Shown in pieces: positions 42,453-50,598 of a stretch of 64,000 nt of DNA (positions are counted from its first letter, which is position 1; each line of letters starts with the position of its first letter). The stretch spans positions 806,001 through 870,000 of the forward strand of contig NZ_CP074102.1 of NCBI RefSeq assembly GCF_018310535.1. Direction: 5' to 3'. This stretch comes from Streptomyces mirabilis. Its GTDB lineage: Bacteria; Actinomycetota; Actinomycetes; Streptomycetales; Streptomycetaceae. Both the position numbers and the translations under genes were made by a program. The notes beneath the pieces are model-generated. The model did not search any database, was not told the DNA's origin, and was given only the letters and a program-made list of their open reading frames with translations.

Positions 42453-43091
42453 CTATCGGCTCCAGCCGGAGACCAGGTGAACACCGGCGAGCGCGACAAC
42501 CAGTCCCGCGCCGAGTGCCACCGCCAGAAGTGACCAGCGTCCGGCGCGCCACGGGGCGACGATCCCGTGGCGCGCCGGACGGCGGCGCAGGTCGGCACCT
42601 ATGAGGCGCGGCAGACGCCACACGTAGGCGAGGACATGCACGACCGTCACGGCGATCCAGCAGATGAAGCTGGCTTTGTGCAGCAGGAGCACCGAAACCG
42701 GGCCGGTGTCGGGTCCGAGCAGGGCCAGCGTCACCCCCGTACCGAGGACGGCGACGCTCGTGGCGACGACCAGGGGGCCCAGCACGCGCAGCAGAGGTGC
42801 GGGCGGCCCCTTGCGGCGGTAGGCGGGCGCGCCCGTGTAGTAGCGGAAGAACCGGTAGCCGGTCGAGCCGATCTTCAGGCAGACCGGGCCGGTCAGCAGC
42901 AGCCCGATGAAGAAGTGCAGGGTGAGGAGCTGCCCGAGGAAAAGGATGGTCACGCCCTCGACGGCGAACAGGACCAGCAGCACCGCACCGGTCGCCGCGG
43001 TCAGCCGCTCGTTGCCCTCCGGGCCGCCGGCCGTCGCGCCGTCCGCCTCGTTCGTGCTGTGGACCGGTGTCCTGCCGCCGATCACGGTCAC
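42453..43091 (-). CDS. Cytochrome b561-like membrane protein
   Basis: 212 residues from the GTG at 43091, which follows GGAGGAC. About five membrane segments: AATGAVLLVLFAVEGVTILF, LLTLHFFIGLLLTGPVCLKI, VATSVAVLGTGVTLAL, LLLHKASFICWIAVTVVHVL and the last near the C-terminus. His residues in segments two and four (TLHFF, LLHKAS, VVHVLAYV) fit a di-haem b-type cytochrome. It lies 118 bp downstream of the ferredoxin gene on the same strand and is probably part of module 2. Confidence 0.75.
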   Translation of the reverse strand: MTVIGGRTPVHSTNEADGATAGGPEGNERLTAATGAVLLVLFAVEGVTILFLGQLLTLHFFIGLLLTGPVCLKIGSTGYRFFRYYTGAPAYRRKGPPAPLLRVLGPLVVATSVAVLGTGVTLALLGPDTGPVSVLLLHKASFICWIAVTVVHVLAYVWRLPRLIGADLRRRPARHGIVAPWRAGRWSLLAVALGAGLVVALAGVHLVSGWSR

Positions 43092-43209
43092 TTGTCCGTC
43101 CTCCTGATGATCGGGCCCCGCCCGGCCCGGATGGCAGTGCTGTCCCGCCCGCTCCCGCACTCCGCGTCGGAGCGGCAGGAGTATGTCTGACGTGGGGTTA
43201 AGAAATCGT

Positions 43210-43455
43210 TCACGACCGCGGGCCCGGCCGCCGGTCCGGGGCACGCCCGGGTGCCCGGTCCAGGCGCAGCGCCAGTGCCGGACACGCGGCCACGGCGCGG
43301 CGCGCGTGCCCGAGGGCTTCACCCGCGAGAGGGGCCGATCCCATGATCGGGTAGCCCCACTCGTCCAACTCGACGAGTTCCGGGAGCAGTTCGGCGCACA
43401 GGCCGTAACCGTCGCAGGCGATGCGGTCGATTCCGAGGGAGTGCGGGACGGCCAT
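43210..43455 (-). CDS. Short ferredoxin (three-Cys, 3Fe-4S type)
   Basis: 81 residues from the ATG at 43455, which follows a perfect GGAGGTGA. The Cys pattern CDGYGLCAE ... AACPALAL (C-x5-C-xn-C-P) is that of actinobacterial 3Fe-4S ferredoxins used with P450s and reductases. It corresponds to the C-terminal domain fused to the NuoF-like protein of module 1. The gene follows the NuoF-like stop by only 5 bp, so it is the soluble electron carrier of module 2. Confidence 0.87.
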   Translation of the reverse strand: MAVPHSLGIDRIACDGYGLCAELLPELVELDEWGYPIMGSAPLAGEALGHARRAVAACPALALRLDRAPGRAPDRRPGPRS

Positions 43456-43460
43456 GCCGA

Positions 43461-44825
43461 TCACCTCCATTCCCGGTCGTCCGGTGCCGGTGTGTCCGGA
43501 ACCGGCAGTACGGGCTCGTCGCCCGCGGCGGCGCACGGGCCGAGGCTCAGGTGGTGGCGTACGTCGTCGGCGAAGACCCGCAGGGCGGTCGCCGCGAAGC
43601 GGGACGCGCCGTCGGGGTGCCGGCAGGCGCCGCGCCCGGCGAGCAGCCCCGCCCGGTCCTCCAGGCGCCGTACCGTCTCCGGGGCGGGACGGCCCCAGGC
43701 GAGGTCCGCGAAGTCCGCGGCGACGGCCGGCAGCCCGAGCCGGCACGGTCCGCACTGGCGTGCGCTCTGCGCCGCGAGGTGGCCGAGCACCCTCGCCGCC
43801 TCGGCCAGACCGCAGGCGCGGGCGGGCAGCGCCACGATCACTCCGGCGCCGGGTCCCGCGCCGAGCGCGGCCAGGTCCTGCTTGGCGAACGGGACGCGCA
43901 GCGCCTGCTCCGCCGGCAGCCAGCTGCCGAAGAAGCCGCCCAGCAGCACGGATCCGAGCGGCTCCGCAGGTCCCCCGGCGGTGTCCAGTACCTGGCCGAG
44001 CGGCAGGCCCATCGCCACTTCGTAGACGCCCGGCGTACGCAGCGCACCGGAGAGGGTCACAAGGGCGGTGCCCGCTGCGTCGGGGCGCCCGGCGCCGCGG
44101 AACCAGCCGGGACCGTAGCGCGCGATCAGTGCGAGGTGGGCGAGGGTCTCGACGTTGTCGATCAGGGTGGGGCGCCGGCCGACCCCCTTCTCGAAGGGGC
44201 GCGGCGGGGTCGCCAGCGGGCGGGCGTCACCCCCGTTCAGCCAGCGCACCAGTGAGGTCTCCTCGCTGGAGACGTAGTGGTGGGGCAGTTCGTGCACCAG
44301 CACCGGCACCGGGGCGAGGCCCAGCCGCCGGCGTTCTTCAACGGCTTCGCGCAGCGCCTGTGCCTGGTCCTGCCGGGTGCGGGGGAGACAGAGGTGCGCC
44401 ACGTCGGCGCCGACCGCGGCGGCGGCCAGTGCGATGCCGTCGAGCACCAGGTGCGGGGCGAGGTCGAGCAGGGTCTCGTCCTTGCGGCTGGCCGGTTCGC
44501 TCTCCATGCCGTTGGCGACCACCACGGCAGTACCCCGGCCGGCGGCGACGGTGCGCAGCTTGCGGCCGGTGGGGAAGGCGGCGCCGCCCCTGCCGGTCAG
44601 TCCTGCGTCCTCCACAGCGCGCACCAGTCGGCCGGCCGTGTCTGCGGTACGAGGAAGGGGCGGCGGGCCGTACCGGCGGAGGTGCTCGTCCAGGCCGGCC
44701 GCGCGGCCGGTTTCGTACCAGCCGTGCAGCAGCCGGGAGCCGTACGGGCCCAGCATGCCGTCCCTGCCGCCGCCGGCCTGAAGGGCTGTCAGGGTTGCTG
44801 GCCCATCGGTCATCGCGTCGGTCAT
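43461..44825 (-). CDS. NuoF-like flavin/Fe-S oxidoreductase (module 2)
   Basis: 454 residues. FMN/NADH motifs are LTGRGGAAFPTGRKLRTVA, VVVANGMESEPASRKDE and LIDNVETLAHLALIARYG. The cluster region reads ARQCGPCRLGLP and GACRHPDGAS; aligned with NuoF (SCGxCxPC) the first Cys is missing, as in the module-1 protein. The start ATG overlaps the stop of the membrane cytochrome gene. It should take electrons from NADH or ferredoxin and pass them to the membrane protein. The direction of flow is not readable. Confidence 0.85.
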   Translation of the reverse strand: MTDAMTDGPATLTALQAGGGRDGMLGPYGSRLLHGWYETGRAAGLDEHLRRYGPPPLPRTADTAGRLVRAVEDAGLTGRGGAAFPTGRKLRTVAAGRGTAVVVANGMESEPASRKDETLLDLAPHLVLDGIALAAAAVGADVAHLCLPRTRQDQAQALREAVEERRRLGLAPVPVLVHELPHHYVSSEETSLVRWLNGGDARPLATPPRPFEKGVGRRPTLIDNVETLAHLALIARYGPGWFRGAGRPDAAGTALVTLSGALRTPGVYEVAMGLPLGQVLDTAGGPAEPLGSVLLGGFFGSWLPAEQALRVPFAKQDLAALGAGPGAGVIVALPARACGLAEAARVLGHLAAQSARQCGPCRLGLPAVAADFADLAWGRPAPETVRRLEDRAGLLAGRGACRHPDGASRFAATALRVFADDVRHHLSLGPCAAAGDEPVLPVPDTPAPDDREWR

Positions 44826-45592
44826 TCGTCGCCTCCCTCGTCATCGGTCGTCGTCGCGGGCGCCGGGTGGACGGTGCTCGTGCCCGTGGTTGTGCCGGTG
44901 CCGGTGCTCGTACTCGTGGCGGTGGCGCCTCCCGCCCGGTGCGCCCAACCCGGTTGCAGCGGACCGGAGTTCACGAACGTGGCCAGCACCACGGGCATCG
45001 CCGCCGCGGCGACCCCCGCCCAGAGCCTTGCCGTGACCCGGCCCGGCCCCGCCCGGTACAGCCGCCACCAGACGGCGGCGACCACGAGGGCGACGCACCC
45101 GGTGTACAGAGCGAGTTGCAACGTGAGCCGGGTGTCGGTGCCGGTCCCGGCGGCATGGAAGAGCGCCACCGGCCAGGCCGCGTAGGCCAGCCAGTGCACG
45201 GCCTTCCACCGCCGCTGCCCCATGCGCAGCCGTACCGCGCTGGTCGCCGCGACCGCGAGCAGCAGGTCGAACGCGACCGTGCCGAGCCCCAGCCAGAGCG
45301 GCCGGTACGAGGCGGTGAACGGCACCACCGTCACCAGCCAGCCCAGGTGGACGAAGGTGTCGAGGATCGCGGTGACGATGTGCAGGGCCAGGAAGACCAG
45401 GGTCAGCACCGACAGGTTGCGGTGCAGCGCGCTCACCTCGAAGCGGGCGAGCCGCCGCGGTGTGTACCGGCCGCCCACGGCGACGCCGAGCGCGACGGTC
45501 GCGGTGAGCAGCACCAGGGCGACGGTGCCGCCGGCCCGGGTCGCGAACCACAGCGGGCTGGGGCCGGCGGCGAGGGGCACGAGTCCGGTCAC
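44822..45592 (-). CDS. Ferric-reductase-like/cytochrome b membrane protein (module 2)
   Basis: 256 residues with six membrane segments and the same haem-type His pairs as 39907-40749: ALHRNLSVLTLVFLALHIVT and AVHWLAYAAWPVALFHAAG. The C-terminal tail is Thr/Gly/Ser-rich (TSTSTGTGTTTGTSTVHPAP). GTG start overlaps the ApbE stop and the stop overlaps the NuoF-like ATG, placing it firmly in one coupled operon. Probably the transmembrane electron conduit. Confidence 0.83.
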   Translation of the reverse strand: MTGLVPLAAGPSPLWFATRAGGTVALVLLTATVALGVAVGGRYTPRRLARFEVSALHRNLSVLTLVFLALHIVTAILDTFVHLGWLVTVVPFTASYRPLWLGLGTVAFDLLLAVAATSAVRLRMGQRRWKAVHWLAYAAWPVALFHAAGTGTDTRLTLQLALYTGCVALVVAAVWWRLYRAGPGRVTARLWAGVAAAAMPVVLATFVNSGPLQPGWAHRAGGATATSTSTGTGTTTGTSTVHPAPATTTDDEGGDE

Positions 45593-46536
45593 CGGGTGCC
45601 TCCCACGCTGTCCTCGGGCCAGCCGCAGACCCGCTCGACGGTTCCGTCCACGCGTACCAGCCGCGCGGGCAGTCCCGCCCGGCGCAGACGGCCGAGGGCG
45701 CGTTCGCCGAGCACGACGGCCTCGGTGCTGGCGGTGTTGGCGGCCACGCAGCTGACGGCGGCGACACTGACGGTCTGCCAGACCGGGGCGGGAATGTCGC
45801 CGGTGGCGGGATCGACGATGTGGTGCAGTCGCCGTCCCCCGCGGCGCCAGGTCCGCACCGTGGTGCCGGAGGTGGCGAGTCCACCCTCGGTGATGCCGAC
45901 CGTGGGCCGGGCCACGGTGTCGGGTGCCGCATGGTCGTCAGCGATGGCGATCCGCCAGCCTCCCGGCGGTGCCTGGCCTGCGACGGAGAGGTCTCCACCG
46001 AGGTTGACCAGGACGCCGCAGCCCGCCGCCTGAGCGGCGCGGTGGGCGGCCCTGTCGGCGGCAAGGGCCTTGGCGGTCGCGCCGAGGTCGAGTGCGATGC
46101 CCGGGGGCAGCCGCAGTCGCCGGATGGGCCGGTCCCATGCCACCGCCCGCCATCCCGCGGACGGTCCGGCGAGGCGTGCGGGGCCCAGGTCCTGCGGTCG
46201 CAGTGCGGCGAATGTGACGTCGTAGCCGAGCGCGGTCACAGCGGCTGCGACGGTGGGGTCCACGACGCCCGCGGTCACCTCTGCCGCGTGCAGCGCCACG
46301 TCCAGTGCCTCGGCGAACAACGTACTCACATGGCATGGGGCACCCGCCGCAGCATTGGCACGCGACAGTTCCGAGTCGGGCCGGAACCGGCTGCACGCCG
46401 CGTCGATGGCGGCGAGTTCGGCGTCGAGGACCCGCCGTGCCGCGTCCATCGCGCCGGGGTCGGCGACGAGCAGCGAGGCGGTGGTACCCAGCGCGGGGAA
46501 GGATACCGACGCCGGACCTGTGGCGGCAGCGGTCAT
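45589..46536 (-). CDS. ApbE-type FAD:protein FMN transferase
   Basis: 315 residues with ApbE signatures: SRFRPDSELSRANA, LDLGATAKALAADRAA, LVNLGGDLSVAG and HHIVDPATGDIP. ApbE attaches FMN from FAD to Ser or Thr in (S/T)GA(S/T)-type motifs of extracytoplasmic proteins, using Mg. No N-terminal signal is clear here, unlike secreted homologues. It is coupled on both sides, downstream of a small membrane-anchored protein ending in SGAS, which is the obvious candidate substrate since no FMN-binding-domain protein is in the operon. Confidence 0.9.
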   Translation of the reverse strand: MTAAATGPASVSFPALGTTASLLVADPGAMDAARRVLDAELAAIDAACSRFRPDSELSRANAAAGAPCHVSTLFAEALDVALHAAEVTAGVVDPTVAAAVTALGYDVTFAALRPQDLGPARLAGPSAGWRAVAWDRPIRRLRLPPGIALDLGATAKALAADRAAHRAAQAAGCGVLVNLGGDLSVAGQAPPGGWRIAIADDHAAPDTVARPTVGITEGGLATSGTTVRTWRRGGRRLHHIVDPATGDIPAPVWQTVSVAAVSCVAANTASTEAVVLGERALGRLRRAGLPARLVRVDGTVERVCGWPEDSVGGTR

Positions 46537-46952
46537 GACGCACCGGACGTGGTGTGCGACGGCTGCGGGGTCGGGGTCGCCGGCTTCGTCGCGGTGGGTG
46601 CGGGGGCTGCCGGATGTGTGGCGGGAGTCGTCCGGTGCTTCGCGACGGTCGTGTGCGTTGCCGTGCGGGAGGAAGGGGCGGCGGTCCTGGACGGGGCCAC
46701 CGAGTGCGACGCGGTCCGCGGGACCGCGGGCGTGCTCGACGTGGCCGCGGGCGCGGGGGTGGACGGTTGCCAGGTGTTCCCAGGGGCGGGTGAGGACTTC
46801 CCGGGCAGGGCGTGGGCGTATCCGGTGGCGAGCGCCACGGAGCCGACCGCTGCCGCGGCGGCCACCCAGCGGGTGGTGCTTCCGACCCGGCGAAGGCCGC
46901 GGTCACGGCGCCGGGCGGCGCCGGCCGACGTGGGCTGGTCGGGGTGGGACAT
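46533..46952 (-). CDS. Membrane-anchored small protein with C-terminal Gly-Ala-Ser
   Basis: 139 residues from the ATG at 46952, preceded by GAGGAGG. Basic start (RRRDRGLRRVGSTTR), one membrane segment (WVAAAAAVGSVALATGYAHA), LPG, then about 100 residues rich in Thr, Pro, Ala and His, probably disordered outside the cell. It ends exactly in TTSGAS. A paralogue at 49556 shares the N-terminus and the GAS end but little between. Its stop overlaps the ApbE start. I propose, as inference, that the end is an ApbE flavinylation site. The Asp usually found before such motifs is absent. Confidence 0.75.
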   Translation of the reverse strand: MSHPDQPTSAGAARRRDRGLRRVGSTTRWVAAAAAVGSVALATGYAHALPGKSSPAPGNTWQPSTPAPAATSSTPAVPRTASHSVAPSRTAAPSSRTATHTTVAKHRTTPATHPAAPAPTATKPATPTPQPSHTTSGAS

Positions 46953-47058
46953 GGTTCCTCCTCGGCCGTCGGTGTGCCGTCGTGAAGCGTTCGTCACCCC
47001 GCGGCCACACCTGCGGACATCCGTCCAACCAGCCTGCGCAGACATCTGTCGGGATCCG

Positions 47059-47075
47059 GTTCAGGAATCCTTCAG
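47059..47075. promoter_or_regulatory. Direct-repeat motif upstream of the ApbE operon
   Basis: On the minus strand this reads CTGAAGGATTCCTGAAC: two CTGAA half-sites 11 bp apart, about 107 bp upstream of the operon's first start. It matches 14 of 17 bases with the site at 49443-49459, which is in the same orientation relative to the paralogous small gene. Confidence 0.55.
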
Positions 47076-47179
47076 AACCCGCAAAGATCAGCGAAGACAC
47101 TGTTCAGGAGGGTGAGATGCGATCTGTCGGGCGGGGCGGCGGCTGCCTGCGGGGCGACCGGCATGTCCCCGGGAGAAAC

Positions 47180-48577
47180 TCAGGCGCCACTCGTCCGCGT
47201 ATCGCCCGAGCCGGGCTTGCCGGTGCGGTCGCGTCCGCGGCGGGAGGCAGGCAGCGACAGGGCCACCGTCAGCCCGCCACCGGGCGAATCCAGCAGCTCG
47301 GCGGTTCCGCCGTTGGCGGTGACCAGCCGGTGGACGATGGCCAGGCCCAGCCCCGTTCCGCTCGCCTCGGGGTTGCCGAACCTGCGGAACGCGCTCTCCC
47401 GCGCGGCCTGGACCATCCCGGGGCCGTTGTCGACGACCCGCAGCTGAACCGCTCCACCCTGCCGCTTGCCGGTGATCCGCACCTGGCCGCCCTCCTGGAC
47501 GGCGTCGAGGGCGTTGGCGATCAGGTTGTCGAGCACCTGCTCCAGATCGCCCTCACCGAGGAAGGCCGTGAGCCCGGGGCAGCAGTCGGCGGTGAGCCGG
47601 ACCGGGCCCGCGTGGGCGACGGGCTCCCAGGCGGCGACCCGTTCGGCCACGAGGCGGTCCACCCCGACCGGCACCGGGCGCGGCACCGCATGCTCGGCGC
47701 GGGCCACTGCCAGCAGTCCGTCCACCAGCCGGGACAGGCGGGCGATCTCGCCCTGCGCATCGGCCAGTTCGGCCGCAGTGTCCCCTTCGGCGTCGGCGGC
47801 GAGCAGGTCGAGTCGAAGCCGGAGCGCCGCGAGCGGGGTGCGCAGCTGGTGGGACACATCGGCGACCACAGCACGGTGACCGTGCACCAGGGCCTCGGTG
47901 CGCCCGGCCATCGTGTTGAACGTCGCCGCGAGCCGGCGCACCTCCTGCGGCCCTGCCTCGACCGGCGCCCGCGCGTCCAGTGCCCCCTCGCCCAGCCGCT
48001 GTGCCGCCTGGTCCAGCACGCGGAGCGGACGGCCGACCCAGCGGGCCAGGAGAACCGACATGAGCACGGCGGCGCCGAGGCCGCTGACGCCGATCAGCGC
48101 GAGCCAGCCCCACATCGCCAGGATCCGGTCGTGCAGCGGGTCGGCGGACCGGCTCAGGACGGCGACCCCGACGGGGCCCGAGGCGTCGCCGATCGGTACG
48201 GCGGTGGTCAGCCACTGATCGTCCTGGCGCACCAGGGTGTCGGGACGGGCGAGCACAGAGGAGGCCAGCCCCGCGGAATCGCCCCCGGCCACGTCGGAAC
48301 ACGCGGTCGACATCAGCACATGTCCCGCGCTGTCGTAGACGGTCGCACAGTCACCTCTCGCCTGGGCCTCCTCGACAAGGCTCCGCGCCGCTGCGTCCGG
48401 CTTGTGGTCGGACAGGTACTCCTCGGCGGCGGAGGCGATCGACCTCGTCCTGGCCGCCGCTTCGTCCCGGAACGAGGTTTGCTCACGCTGGGTCATGATC
48501 AGCCCGAGCGGCACCACTGCCAGCACCAGAACCGCGGTGATCAGGGCGAGGACGCTGAGTGCGATACGGCGGGTCAC
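47180..48577 (-). CDS. Sensor histidine kinase of the redox island
   Basis: 465 residues: membrane segment about 7-29, extracytoplasmic sensor of about 125 residues with two Cys (ARGDCATVY, MSTACSDV), second membrane segment about 153-178, HAMP linker, then H-box VADVSHQLRTPLAALRLR (His about 239), N-box DNLIANALDAV and VVDNGPGM, GTGLGLAIVHRL. The GTG start is 6 bp after the response regulator stop. Its two extracytoplasmic Cys could sense redox state, which is inference. It lies between the two GAS-protein genes. Confidence 0.92.
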   Translation of the reverse strand: MTRRIALSVLALITAVLVLAVVPLGLIMTQREQTSFRDEAAARTRSIASAAEEYLSDHKPDAAARSLVEEAQARGDCATVYDSAGHVLMSTACSDVAGGDSAGLASSVLARPDTLVRQDDQWLTTAVPIGDASGPVGVAVLSRSADPLHDRILAMWGWLALIGVSGLGAAVLMSVLLARWVGRPLRVLDQAAQRLGEGALDARAPVEAGPQEVRRLAATFNTMAGRTEALVHGHRAVVADVSHQLRTPLAALRLRLDLLAADAEGDTAAELADAQGEIARLSRLVDGLLAVARAEHAVPRPVPVGVDRLVAERVAAWEPVAHAGPVRLTADCCPGLTAFLGEGDLEQVLDNLIANALDAVQEGGQVRITGKRQGGAVQLRVVDNGPGMVQAARESAFRRFGNPEASGTGLGLAIVHRLVTANGGTAELLDSPGGGLTVALSLPASRRGRDRTGKPGSGDTRTSGA

Positions 48578-48583
48578 GGCGCG

Positions 48584-49279
48584 TCAGCCGACTTCACCGA
48601 GGCGGAAACCGCGCCCGTAGACCGTCTCGACCAGTCCGGGCACGCCCAGCTTGCGGCGCAGCGCGGCCATGTGTACGTCCAGCACCTTCGTGGGCCCGTA
48701 CCAGTGGGCGTCCCAGGCACGTTCCAGGATCTCCTGCCGCGTCACGACCCGGCCGGGATCGGCGGCGAGGCATTGGAGGATGTCGAATTCCTTGGGGGTG
48801 AGCGCGATTTCCGCCCCGCCTACCGTCACCTTGCGGGTGCGCGGATCGACGACGAGCGGGCCGTGGGTCAACAGCTCGGGCTCGGACGGGCGGATGCGGC
48901 GCAGTACGGCCCTGATCCGTGCCAGCAACTCCGCCAGGCCGAAGGGTTTGACCAGGTAGTCGTCGGCGCCTTCGTCGAGGGCGGCAACCCGGTCGCCCTC
49001 CTCGCCGCGGGCGGTCACCACGATGATCGCCACATCCGACTGGCGGCGCAGCACGCGGCAGACCTCGATGCCGTCCACGTCCGGCAGGCCGAGGTCCAGC
49101 AGGACCACGTCGGGTGCGGGAACGTGGGTGAGCGCACCGCGTCCGGTGCCAACGCTGGTCGCCCGGTACCCGGCTCGGTCCAGGCCACGCACCAGCGACC
49201 GGGCGAGCCCCGGGTCGTCCTCGACGACCAGCACGGTGTGCGCGCCGGGATCCGCCCGATGGCCGTTTTCCTCTTCCAC
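48584..49279 (-). CDS. OmpR-type response regulator of the redox island
   Basis: 231 residues from the GTG at 49279. Receiver domain: TVLVVEDDPGLARSLVRGLD, phosphoacceptor Asp in VVLLDLGLPD (about 62), Lys in DYLVKPFGLAE. Winged helix: LTPKEFDILQCLAAD, HWYGPTKVLDVHMAALRRKLG, VYGRGFRLGEVG. It precedes its kinase in one operon. Predicted targets are the 11-bp-period repeats upstream of the two GAS-protein genes (47059-47075 and 49443-49459). The long open frame upstream of the GTG is not family sequence. Confidence 0.92.
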   Translation of the reverse strand: MEEENGHRADPGAHTVLVVEDDPGLARSLVRGLDRAGYRATSVGTGRGALTHVPAPDVVLLDLGLPDVDGIEVCRVLRRQSDVAIIVVTARGEEGDRVAALDEGADDYLVKPFGLAELLARIRAVLRRIRPSEPELLTHGPLVVDPRTRKVTVGGAEIALTPKEFDILQCLAADPGRVVTRQEILERAWDAHWYGPTKVLDVHMAALRRKLGVPGLVETVYGRGFRLGEVG

Positions 49280-49442
49280 GGCACCCAGCGTAGGACGACG
49301 GGGACCACTCTCCGGACCGAGGGAGGGCCGGCTACGTGGGACGGACGGAGCGAGGGGCACGCGGGACGAAGGGCGAGGACGCGGGGCGGGCGGGGGACGG
49401 TACGCGCAGGGCCGCCGCCGTATCCGCCCGGCTTTGCCACAT

Positions 49443-49459
49443 CTGAAGCTTCCCTGAAC
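49443..49459. promoter_or_regulatory. Direct-repeat motif upstream of the second GAS-protein gene
   Basis: CTGAAGCTTCCCTGAAC, two CTGAA half-sites 11 bp apart, about 97 bp before the start at 49556. It lies in the shared upstream region of the response regulator gene, so it could also mediate autoregulation. Confidence 0.55.
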
Positions 49460-49555
49460 GGCTTTCCGACGCGACGCGACGCACGCTGATGACATGGCGT
49501 CCGCGAGCCGGACGTTCGCCTCGCGGCACAGACTTCGTCCGAAGGAGGTCAGCCC

Positions 49556-49831
49556 ATGCCCATGACTGTGCCCGGACCCGCGGCGGCCCCAGACCCGGTG
49601 CGGCGACGCGAACGCGGACTCCGGCGAGTAGGCACCACGACCCGGCGGACCGCCACCGCCGCGACGGCCGCAACCCTTCTGCTCGGAGCCGGCTACGCCC
49701 ATGCGCTGCCGGGCACCTCCCACCCGGCGTCCGGCGCGGCCCAGCACTCCACCCGCGACCACCCTCGGCCCCCGGCCAACGCCCCGGCCTCCACCACACA
49801 GCCGGCACAGACGACGACCGGAGCGTCCTGA
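49556..49831 (+). CDS. Paralogous membrane-anchored small protein ending in Gly-Ala-Ser
   Basis: 91 residues from an ATG preceded by GAAGGAGGT. The N-terminal part (DPVRRRERGLRRVGTTTRR) and membrane segment (TATAATAATLLLGAGYAHAL), then LPGTSHPA, match the protein at 46533-46952. The exposed part is only about 40 residues, rich in Pro, Ala, Thr and His, and ends TTTGAS. The paralogues differ in linker length but keep both ends, which suggests the membrane anchor and the terminal GAS matter. Probably the same role as the other copy. Confidence 0.75.
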   Translation: MPMTVPGPAAAPDPVRRRERGLRRVGTTTRRTATAATAATLLLGAGYAHALPGTSHPASGAAQHSTRDHPRPPANAPASTTQPAQTTTGAS

Positions 49832-50190
49832 TGCCTGATCCCACCACCAGTGGCGGGCATCGTGGTGCGCACGAACTGCGTGCCACGGCCACCGAGCAGG
49901 GCAGCACCTATGCCGGGATCGTGCGGCTGGCGCGGCAGGCCGGCGTCGAGTCCGCGCCCGTCGTGCGACTGGCGGACCGATACGCCGCACGGTTCCTGCC
50001 CCTGCCGCTCGCGGGGCGGGTCTGGCCTGGTTGATCAGCAGCTCCGCAGTGCGCGCGGTCGCGGTCCTGGTGGTCGTCACCCCTTGTCCGCTGTTGTTGG
50101 CCGCTCCTGCCGCGATCGTCTCCGGCCTCTCCCGCGCCTCCCGTCTCGGCGTCGTCTTCCTCGGCAACCGGGCGCAGGGCCTCGAGTCCG
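49831..50190 (+). pseudogene. Heavy-metal P-type ATPase fragment
   Basis: Two overlapping frames read ATEQGSTYAGIVRLARQAGV then, after a frameshift near 50031, AVRAVAVLVVVTPCPLLLAA and AAIVSGLSRASRLGVV. TPCPL is the metal motif of CPC-type P1B ATPases. The N-terminal actuator region and all of the phosphorylation and ATP-binding domains are missing, so it is a remnant. It ends where the antisense DUF302 gene begins to match its own family. Confidence 0.75.
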
Positions 50191-50501
50191 GTCAGGGCCA
50201 CCATCGTCTGCGGGTCGAGGGCCTGTACTGCGGTGCGGTCGCCGTCGGCGCGGACGACCACGTTGCAGGGCAGCAGCAGGCCGATGGTGCGGTCCGCCTG
50301 CAGGGCCCGGTGGGCCAGTGGCGGGTTGCAGGCGCCAAGGATGACGTAGTCCTCCATGCCCTGGTCGAGTTTCGCCTTGAGGGTGGCGGTGACGTCGATC
50401 TCGGTGAGGACTCCGAAGCCCTGCTCGGCGAGGGCCTCGCGAACCCGGGTGACGGCGGTGGCGAAGTCCGTGTCGAGGTGCACCGTGCGGTCGTAGCGCA
50501 T
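49908..50501 (-). CDS. DUF302-family protein with aberrant C-terminal tail
   Basis: The ATG at 50501, preceded by AAAGGA, opens MRYDRTVHLDTDFATAVTRV and continues EIDVTATLKAKLDQGMEDYV and LLLPCNVVVRADGDRTAV, the DUF302 fold of about 130 residues. After ALRPVAEEDD the family sequence stops. The remaining 75 or so residues are the antisense of the P-type ATPase fragment, rich in Arg, so the natural end was replaced by a recombination junction near 50160. The DUF302 core may still fold. These genes commonly accompany CsoR-controlled sulfur or copper genes; such an operator is present upstream. Confidence 0.75.
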   Translation of the reverse strand: MRYDRTVHLDTDFATAVTRVREALAEQGFGVLTEIDVTATLKAKLDQGMEDYVILGACNPPLAHRALQADRTIGLLLPCNVVVRADGDRTAVQALDPQTMVALTGLEALRPVAEEDDAETGGAGEAGDDRGRSGQQQRTRGDDHQDRDRAHCGAADQPGQTRPASGRGRNRAAYRSASRTTGADSTPACRASRTIPA

Positions 50502-50598
50502 GGTGTCGTCCTTTCCTGTCCGCTTGCGCGGCGCTCGGGTGTCCAGCCGCGGGCCAGACATCCGTGTGCTGTTTCACAGGGCTTTCCATGTCCCATGA

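Follow-up and report, generated by a model that had tools for sequence, protein, structure and literature searches.

Two short membrane-anchored proteins encoded in a 64,000-nucleotide stretch of Streptomyces mirabilis DNA (contig NZ_CP074102.1, C1:806001-870000; hereafter the window, whose coordinates are used unless marked C1 or preceded by a locus number) are probably substrates of ApbE, the FAD:protein FMN transferase (FAD, flavin adenine dinucleotide; FMN, flavin mononucleotide), cut down to an anchor, a tether and a tip. A cytosolic ApbE would put FMN on their C-terminal serine, and the tail would carry electrons outward. Anchor 1 (46533..46952, (-) strand, 139 aa) consists of an Arg-rich N-terminus with GLRRVGSTT, one transmembrane helix and a Pro/Thr/Ala/Ser tail that closes with QPSHTTSGAS. 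Its tip TTSGAS (46536..46553, (-); ACC ACG TCC GGT GCG TCA) bears the predicted attachment site on the last Ser, the TCA codon of which overlaps the ATG of apbE, so that ATGA is common to the stop of anchor 1 and the start of apbE in a start-stop coupling. ApbE itself (45589..46536, (-), 315 aa) matches PF02424 with E=1.5e-49 and 169.4 bits against a cut-off of 25.6. Anchor 2 (49556..49831, (+), 91 aa) is divergent, lies about 3 kb from apbE beyond a sensor kinase and a response regulator, and ends in PAQTTTGAS, its tip TTTGAS occupying 49811..49828 on the (+) strand (ACG ACG ACC GGA GCG TCC). Neither anchor has a Pfam or NCBIfam match, and the window holds no match to FMN_bind (PF04205). A preliminary description of this DNA had pointed to two paralogous anchor proteins with these ends, one of them coupled to apbE, and to the lack of an FMN-binding-domain protein here; the coordinates, the ATGA overlap and the PF04205 search bear this out.

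The two anchors align over 39 residues of the anchor (24/39 identical) and again at the tail end. They have in common GLRRVG[ST]TTR, one hydrophobic segment, GYAHALPG and then, at the very end, TT[ST]GAS, while the Pro/Thr/Ala/Ser tails between helix and tip are unrelated. Both carry the [ST]GA[ST] part of the Dxx[ST]GA[ST] motif of known substrates, and the Asp position is His in anchor 1 and Gln in anchor 2. The absence of the Asp, as the preliminary description had it, is thus true of the window anchors, but it is limited to their subfamily: a second tail operon of the same genome (L034, C1:2074000-2086000; tail, ApbE, MsrQ-like, NuoF-like, ferredoxin) encodes a 120-aa tail that ends in GGSADSTSGAS and so contains the whole published motif D-x-x-[ST]-G-A-[ST]. 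The missing Asp had also been counted as a weakness, which is lessened by a review whose passages on the motif report only minor effects of an Asp-to-Ala change (PMC12052999). The window ApbE is 83-88% identical to its closest named relatives in four Streptomyces species. Among the named relatives, anchor 1 ends in PSHTTSGAS in 5/5 Streptomyces and in QTNSGAS and QTTSGGS in two Actinacidiphila; anchor 2 ends in TT[TS]GAS in 4/4 Streptomyces with enough flank and is found by the [ST]GA[ST]-end rule in 0/2 Actinacidiphila (4/6 overall). Searching the own genome with anchor 2 returned only anchors 1 and 2 and missed the tail of the second operon, so this search was too insensitive.

Conservation of the tip was then followed through the genus and the class. 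The genus survey covered 150 genomes, 65 of them with an ApbE match at E <= 0.001, including many weak matches to other ApbEs; 30 loci were examined and 23 scored. The neighbouring open reading frame (ORF) ended in [ST]GA[ST] at 23/23 scored loci, in two subfamilies, P[HQ]TT[TS]GAS and D[SA]TSGAS. Outside the tally stand two loci without a tail (L031, L033) and those where the neighbour also ends in Ser, namely in TRSRGS or TRSSGS (L026, L027, L032), in TNSRAS (L028) and in FTRGS on a DUF2271 protein (L030). T-[ST]-G-A-S aligned at the end in 24/24 anchors, both window anchors counted, with differing tails; together with the 39-residue anchor alignment this confirms the earlier statement that only the anchor and the end are conserved. 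At class level, 102 of 394 genomes matched at E <= 1e-12, from 61/137 genera, and the analysis took 89 rows, mainly the best-scoring, from the 122 that lay outside the own genome. The 89 class and 23 genus loci make 112 apbE loci, of which 3 lie at a contig edge and one (L078) has no callable ORF, leaving 108. The adjacent ORF ends in Ser in 85/108 (genus 23/23, class 62/85) versus 18/255 control genes, called by a simple rule on GC content at third codon positions in 20 stretches of 20 kb; a scan of the same 400 kb for tail-like ORFs in any frame found 7. The class motif is [ST]-x-[GA]-S-COOH, present at 79/108 ends versus 144/6048 internal 4-mers of the same ORF ends (genus and class), and for the class only at 56/85 ends versus 125/4760. 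The internal 4-mers and the 255 control genes rule against low-complexity chance as the source of the tip. The 62 Ser-ended class ORFs have S/T at position -3 in 62/62, and at position -1 there are 51 with G and 5 with A, tips varying between GAS, GGS, SGS and RGS; not bare tails among them are L131 and L135 (other secreted proteins) and L137 (a DUF2271 protein). A search for short GA(S/T)-ended proteins next to apbE, as had been proposed, thus succeeds throughout the scored genus loci, but at class level the strict [ST]GA[ST] end occurs in only 3/85 ORFs and it is the relaxed form that recurs.

As held-out material we used plasmid loci, found with ApbE as the sole query once the pattern had been fixed. 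Nine records were found, four of them were opened, one per genus, and the pattern fitted in 4/4: in each, inspection by eye shows a single helix and a low-complexity tail in the ORF that stops at apbE, with tips RSAGS in Rhodococcus qingshengii, TTRAS in Arthrobacter, HTAAS in Gordonia and RSGGS in Streptomyces NBC_00637. None of the four tail genes is among the genes in the (incomplete) gene tables. Some neighbouring proteins of other build were seen on the way. In L170 (16-902), a Glu-type locus, a single apbE is preceded by a pair of tail proteins, one directly after the other, each with HT[KT]TGAS at least 4 residues before the end. A different, apparently secreted protein of about 150-220 aa with FEVCSG near the same ApbE group is also Ser-ended (L126 3014-3927 (-), L131 1449-1982, L135), its ends being TTSGGS, NTSGS, GQSKQS and GQSKSS, and DUF2271-type proteins beside the same group (L040 2966-3685; L137) end in TRGS.

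The overlap with apbE allows another account of the tip, in which Gly-Ala-Ser is a by-product of translation: GGGGG or GGAG in the Gly-Ala codons would serve as the apbE Shine-Dalgarno sequence, TCATGA as the start-stop overlap, and the peptide end would have no function. Consistent with this, the tip DNA in the genus is typically ACG GGG GCG TCA TGA, apbE starting where the tail gene stops and Gly being GGG in 20/23, and GGAG is still found in the anchor 2 tip of two of four relatives. However, anchor 2 keeps TT[TS]GAS in four named relatives with no start codon at its stop and no evident gene in the 400 bases behind, and in two relatives its tip codons are GGC GCG TCC and GGC GCC TCC. Across the class, the stop falls anywhere from -119 to +31 from the extrapolated apbE start, the last Ser codons are TCN in 42 and AGY in 20, and the Shine-Dalgarno sequence does not reach the conserved Thr/Ser at -3 to -5, whose third bases change. 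Given the codons, the non-overlapping loci and the stand-alone anchor 2, we rejected a Shine-Dalgarno or overlap artefact as the full account and consider it highly improbable. Selection acts on the peptide, because anchor 2 stands alone, both classes of Ser codon are used and the stop-start spacing is variable; the Shine-Dalgarno sequence may add a local constraint on codon choice.

Whether this ApbE might have another substrate was addressed by a survey of known substrate families. It took in 80 of 101 class-level genomes, 21 being left out (11 less complete, 10 with weaker matches), and covered FMN_bind, DUF2271 and NqrB/RnfD. FMN_bind was not found in 42/80 genomes holding this ApbE, and 38/38 genomes with FMN_bind have at least 3 ApbE match pieces. 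Exactly one ApbE match, at the place of the tail-type ApbE (the enzyme of the tail loci), was present in 34 of the 42 FMN_bind-free genomes. In these 34, DUF2271 reached E <= 0.001 in 4 genomes and exceeded its cut-off in 1, there was no match to NqrB/RnfD (0/34), and a low-complexity tail lies beside the single ApbE in 26/34; one further genome (G263) has a DUF2271 protein ending in TYTRGS beside ApbE instead, and another (G449) was not fetched. Meheust et al., in the part of the article bearing on this (PMC8238504), count 670 genomes that have ApbE but none of the recognised substrates, and state that less prevalent substrates remain unidentified. The 34/80 genomes with one ApbE match and no FMN_bind, 26 of them with a tail, may be cases of this kind.

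In the window, apbE is the second of five genes that run head to tail on the (-) strand from 46952 down to about 43210: anchor 1, apbE, MsrQ-like, NuoF-like and ferredoxin. The MsrQ-like or ferric-reductase-like membrane haem protein (44822..45592, (-), 256 aa; PF01794, E=1.1e-7) has, by eye, four His in or near hydrophobic segments. It is followed by a NuoF-like flavoprotein of 454 aa that binds reduced nicotinamide adenine dinucleotide (NADH) and has a 4Fe-4S region (43461..44825, (-); PF01512, PF10589 and PF10531, with a TIGR01959 match below its cut-off), and by a small ferredoxin with an uncertain start codon (about 43210..43455, (-); PF13459, E=1.2e-10 in the translated stretch 43210-43755). 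Among 116 loci searched by tblastn, the MsrQ-like gene was found in 104, the NuoF-like in 85 and the ferredoxin in 40, many loci ending 1.5 kb downstream; FMN_bind was found in 0/116, a weak test that used two own-genome FMN_bind seeds. The related genomes of L063 and L078 show a reduced cluster, apbE then ferredoxin, with no MsrQ-like or NuoF-like match in 1.5 kb and no tail nearby.

Known ApbEs share Ser-His-Asp, given for the Vibrio cholerae enzyme as S241, H257 and D285 in the review passages (PMC12052999), and Asp301 of FmnB is described in the corresponding part of its report as coordinating both Mg2+ ions (PMC8906456). From this family triad, Ser and His are present in the window ApbE, spaced as in known ApbEs, but Asp is not: 28 residues after the His stands Asn, where Salmonella ApbE (3pnd) has Asp. 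In 131 aligned rows the position is Asn in 88 and Glu in 37, and the own genome's two canonical ApbEs retain Asp. Some rows repeat a locus: among the 88 with Asn, L160-L162 duplicate L078, L063 and L086, and among those with Glu, L167 duplicates L138. Tail-type ApbE looks like a working, altered enzyme, because none of the 88 Asn rows departs from the Ser, the His or a Thr that follows four residues later and the flavin-site Lys and two Asp are each kept in 129/131 rows, even though the Asp is replaced and the Asn of LVNLGGD is variable. An exact Ser end was present in 72/72 Asn-type tails versus 18/27 Glu-type tails (Fisher p 2.7e-6), with hand-corrected ends for L105 and L108, 13 loci set aside as without a tail, and the tails in L163, L169 and L170 outside all Asn/Glu counts; the Asn-type figure becomes 72/75 once L053, L079 and L088, with their low-complexity ORFs, are included. 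On a tree of 120 rows (13 named rows dropped), all 83 Asn-type rows fall on one side of one branch. The Asn type is therefore one event, the p-value is not independent evidence, and co-evolution of Asn-for-Asp with the exact Ser end was rejected as independent statistical evidence. The exact Ser ends of the Asn-type tails suggest that the terminal carboxylate of the substrate may replace the lost Asp. It is conceivable, if somewhat doubtful, that this actinobacterial ApbE clade has specialised in the last residue, having given up the Mg2+-binding Asp (now Asn) with the C-terminal carboxylate beside the accepting Ser supplying the metal ligand. Electron carriers made of a flavin tip on a disordered tether would then form a class apart, served by a substrate-assisted transferase of their own.

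The topology predicted for the tails is uniform. K/R are more numerous before than after the transmembrane helix in 93/94 tails, 88/94 pass the helix hydropathy threshold, and the stretch after the helix measures 40-220 residues across tails (median 75 in the Asn type) and 40-159 in relatives of the same ApbE type. Most, but not all, known ApbEs carry a signal peptide or lipobox. Under a crude hydropathy rule, a hydrophobic N-terminus was found in 0/133 aligned ApbE rows and the window ApbE has no evident signal peptide, therefore attachment would have to precede export; cytosolic ApbEs are known according to passages of the review (PMC12052999). These enzymes without a hydrophobic N-terminus, and a NuoF-like protein and ferredoxin that are expected inside, would also suit a tail that is flavinylated but stays in the cytosol, where it tethers the NuoF-like to the MsrQ-like protein. 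The positive-inside rule argues the other way in all tails but one, and we judge a cytosolic tail distinctly unlikely. As to the route, RR precedes the helix in 60/70 Asn-type and 8/22 Glu-type tails. The signal pattern of twin-arginine translocation (Tat) is RRxFLK, which the following residues do not fit; Tat export of the tails is possible. Many tails, the one at 46533-46952 among them, have a G[LI]RRxxxxT-like stretch before the helix; GxRR occurs in 42 tails, and in 30/42 a Thr stands six positions beyond the first Arg. The stretch may serve for docking or as a signal for export.

We infer flavinylation, export after modification, electron direction, acceptor and regulation, which together would take the following course. 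The cytosolic ApbE (45589-46536) would move FMN from FAD onto the C-terminal Ser, at its hydroxyl. Membrane insertion would follow, the N-terminus of the tail protein remaining inside and the tail lying outside, which would leave the flavin at the end of a disordered arm. Electrons would pass from NADH through the NuoF-like protein, the ferredoxin and the MsrQ-like haems to the flavin tip, which would swing towards its acceptor, perhaps a metal ion, located in the wall or outside. Anchors 1 and 2, as tethers of unequal length, would share one ApbE, probably under control of the two-component system encoded between them.

Several observations weigh against flavinylated tips. The Mg2+-binding Asp is replaced by Asn or Glu in tail-type ApbE, and alanine at FmnB metal-site residues greatly reduced or abolished activity, as stated in part of that report (PMC8906456). 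The Asn of LVNLGGD, kept in both canonical own-genome ApbEs, is Asn in only 27/131 rows. Beyond the genus, GA[ST] gives way at most tips to GGS, SGS or RGS, and flavinylation of a known substrate fell by half when its G or A was changed, according to the review passages (PMC12052999). Relatives with other C-terminal residues, to which the preliminary description had looked as the evidence that could overturn it, occur in part: 23/85 class-level ORFs lack a Ser end, yet the Ser-ended ones hold S/T at -3 without exception. In nine of the 23 (L114, L115, L122, L123, L124, L127, L128, L132, L134) a Ser stands 1-4 residues before the end, the ORF rule picked the wrong ORF in L105 and L108, and Ser-ended ORFs occur elsewhere in the locus in L090 and L126. 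No tail is seen in the stretch examined at 11/86 class loci not at a contig edge (L051, L053, L063, L078, L079, L081, L086, L088, L109, L136, L138), although L053, L079 and L088 have low-complexity ORFs with other ends. In 6/34 single-ApbE genomes (G152, G194, G300, G372, G388, G515) there is no tail near ApbE, so that in some genomes even tail-type ApbE is without a recognised neighbour substrate. Finally, ApbE seems to be cytosolic and export of an already flavinylated tail must be assumed, a puzzle that the canonical clusters of the own genome pose as well, their ApbEs likewise lacking a hydrophobic N-terminus.

The replaced active-site Asp, the relaxed motif outside the genus and the six genomes with only this ApbE and neither FMN_bind nor a nearby tail would all fit an unflavinylated tail, acting as a structural partner or as the target of another modification while ApbE modifies something unlinked. 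Against this stand the tail in 26 of the 34 single-ApbE genomes, none of which has NqrB/RnfD, the fact that the one DUF2271 protein over its cut-off is itself an ApbE neighbour ending in TYTRGS, and the shared end feature with Ser/Thr spaced as in the ApbE motif; we regard an unflavinylated tail as unlikely. Anatomy, tip conservation, gene coupling, the lack of the usual substrates in many genomes and the predicted topology are all taken from the sequences. The comparative evidence supports the original proposal of a flavin on the C-terminal tip, with flavinylation itself as its predicted part, because the tip motif extends across genus and class, the gene is coupled to apbE, FMN_bind is absent from 42/80 genomes and an MsrQ-like neighbour accompanies 104/116 loci.

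The remaining features of the window surround these genes. Between the two anchors lie the sensor histidine kinase (47180..48577, (-); HATPase_c, HAMP, HisKA) and the OmpR-type response regulator, with an uncertain start codon (48584..49300, (-); Response_reg and Trans_reg_C in the translated stretch). Downstream of the ferredoxin, an apparent membrane protein without a Pfam match (42453-43190, (-)) may belong to the operon. Behind anchor 2, at 49831-50261 (+), a P-type ATPase is present as fragments in two frames (E1-E2_ATPase piece 50031-50261, E=1.2e-4); they look like a remnant and are not evident in four relatives. A DUF302 gene lies near the window cluster (50260-50561, (-)) and likewise near the Arthrobacter plasmid cluster (L181 7422-7838). 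Elsewhere, a Glu-type subgroup (L037, L038, L183) adjoins copper genes, with a CopA-like ATPase and HMA proteins by eye, a DsbD_2-cupredoxin protein (L038, Pfam) and a Met-rich protein (L183, a plasmid); its tails have an internal VTRSSGSG- or VTRSTDSG-like motif and a terminal TRS[RSG]GS. A metal-reductase role is a reasonable lead from this subgroup.

The own genome offers a comparison within one organism. It has four ApbE genes (two matched in two pieces), two beside FMN_bind and two beside tails. The three FMN_bind (PF04205) proteins, at C1:1353598, 7243355 and 7245300, form two clusters, each with its own ApbE and with MsrQ-like proteins that have, by eye, an NAD-binding part, which is the published arrangement. 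These FMN_bind proteins look like tails plus a domain, in the order anchor, linker, domain. They resemble the tails in the N-terminal one-helix anchor, the Ser-rich or mixed linker and the ApbE next door, and their clusters resemble the tail operons in the MsrQ-like/NAD-binding protein nearby and in an ApbE without a hydrophobic N-terminus. Unlike the tails, they carry their motifs (DSVSGAT, DSVSGAS, DAVSGAT) inside the domain, about 20 residues before the end, whereas the window tails have no domain and the motif is the end of the protein.

Comparison with published systems separates what is known from what appears new. Meheust et al. (2021), in the part on such clusters (PMC8238504), place apbE beside a PF01794 haem membrane protein, with a NuoF-like partner in 31 clusters, and give FMN-binding genes as the usual substrates, a signal-peptide filter having been applied. 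The window likewise has a PF01794 protein with ApbE, plus the NuoF-like protein, but in the place typically held by an FMN-binding-domain gene it has a domain-free tail protein. The MsrQ-like/NuoF-like cluster type is thus already published, and the tail substrate is new within the literature searched: mostly in titles and the beginnings of abstracts, with bioRxiv beyond PMC and subscription papers outside the coverage, no natural, domain-free ApbE substrate modified at a C-terminal tip was described. DUF2271 substrates were found for orphan apbE genes (in the same part of PMC8238504), and the two DUF2271-type proteins beside tail-type ApbE mentioned above likewise carry their TRGS at the C-terminus; DUF2271 is a domain of about 135 residues, however, and the window tails have none. 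Another known system is that of the FMN_red proteins of a 2024 follow-up, for which the relevant passages (PMC11334425) predict flavinylation sites on an unstructured C-terminal extension. That extension joins a folded FMN reductase domain near its flavin site, whereas the window tails have no folded domain. If the tails are flavinylated, a helix, a flexible chain and four residues would be enough for a flavin redox carrier, which could then do without a flavin-binding fold, and such a swinging arm through a thick wall would be missed by domain-based searches. A further related system is the seven-residue Flavin-tag of Tong et al., which according to passages of the review (PMC12052999) works as a tag, and best at a terminus. 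Like the proposed tip, it is a short motif flavinylated without a flavin-binding fold of its own. The Flavin-tag is engineered, whereas the tails, Ser-ended, often without the Asp and paired with an Asn- or Glu-type ApbE, would be a natural version of it: a C-terminal flavin tag with a soluble transferase.

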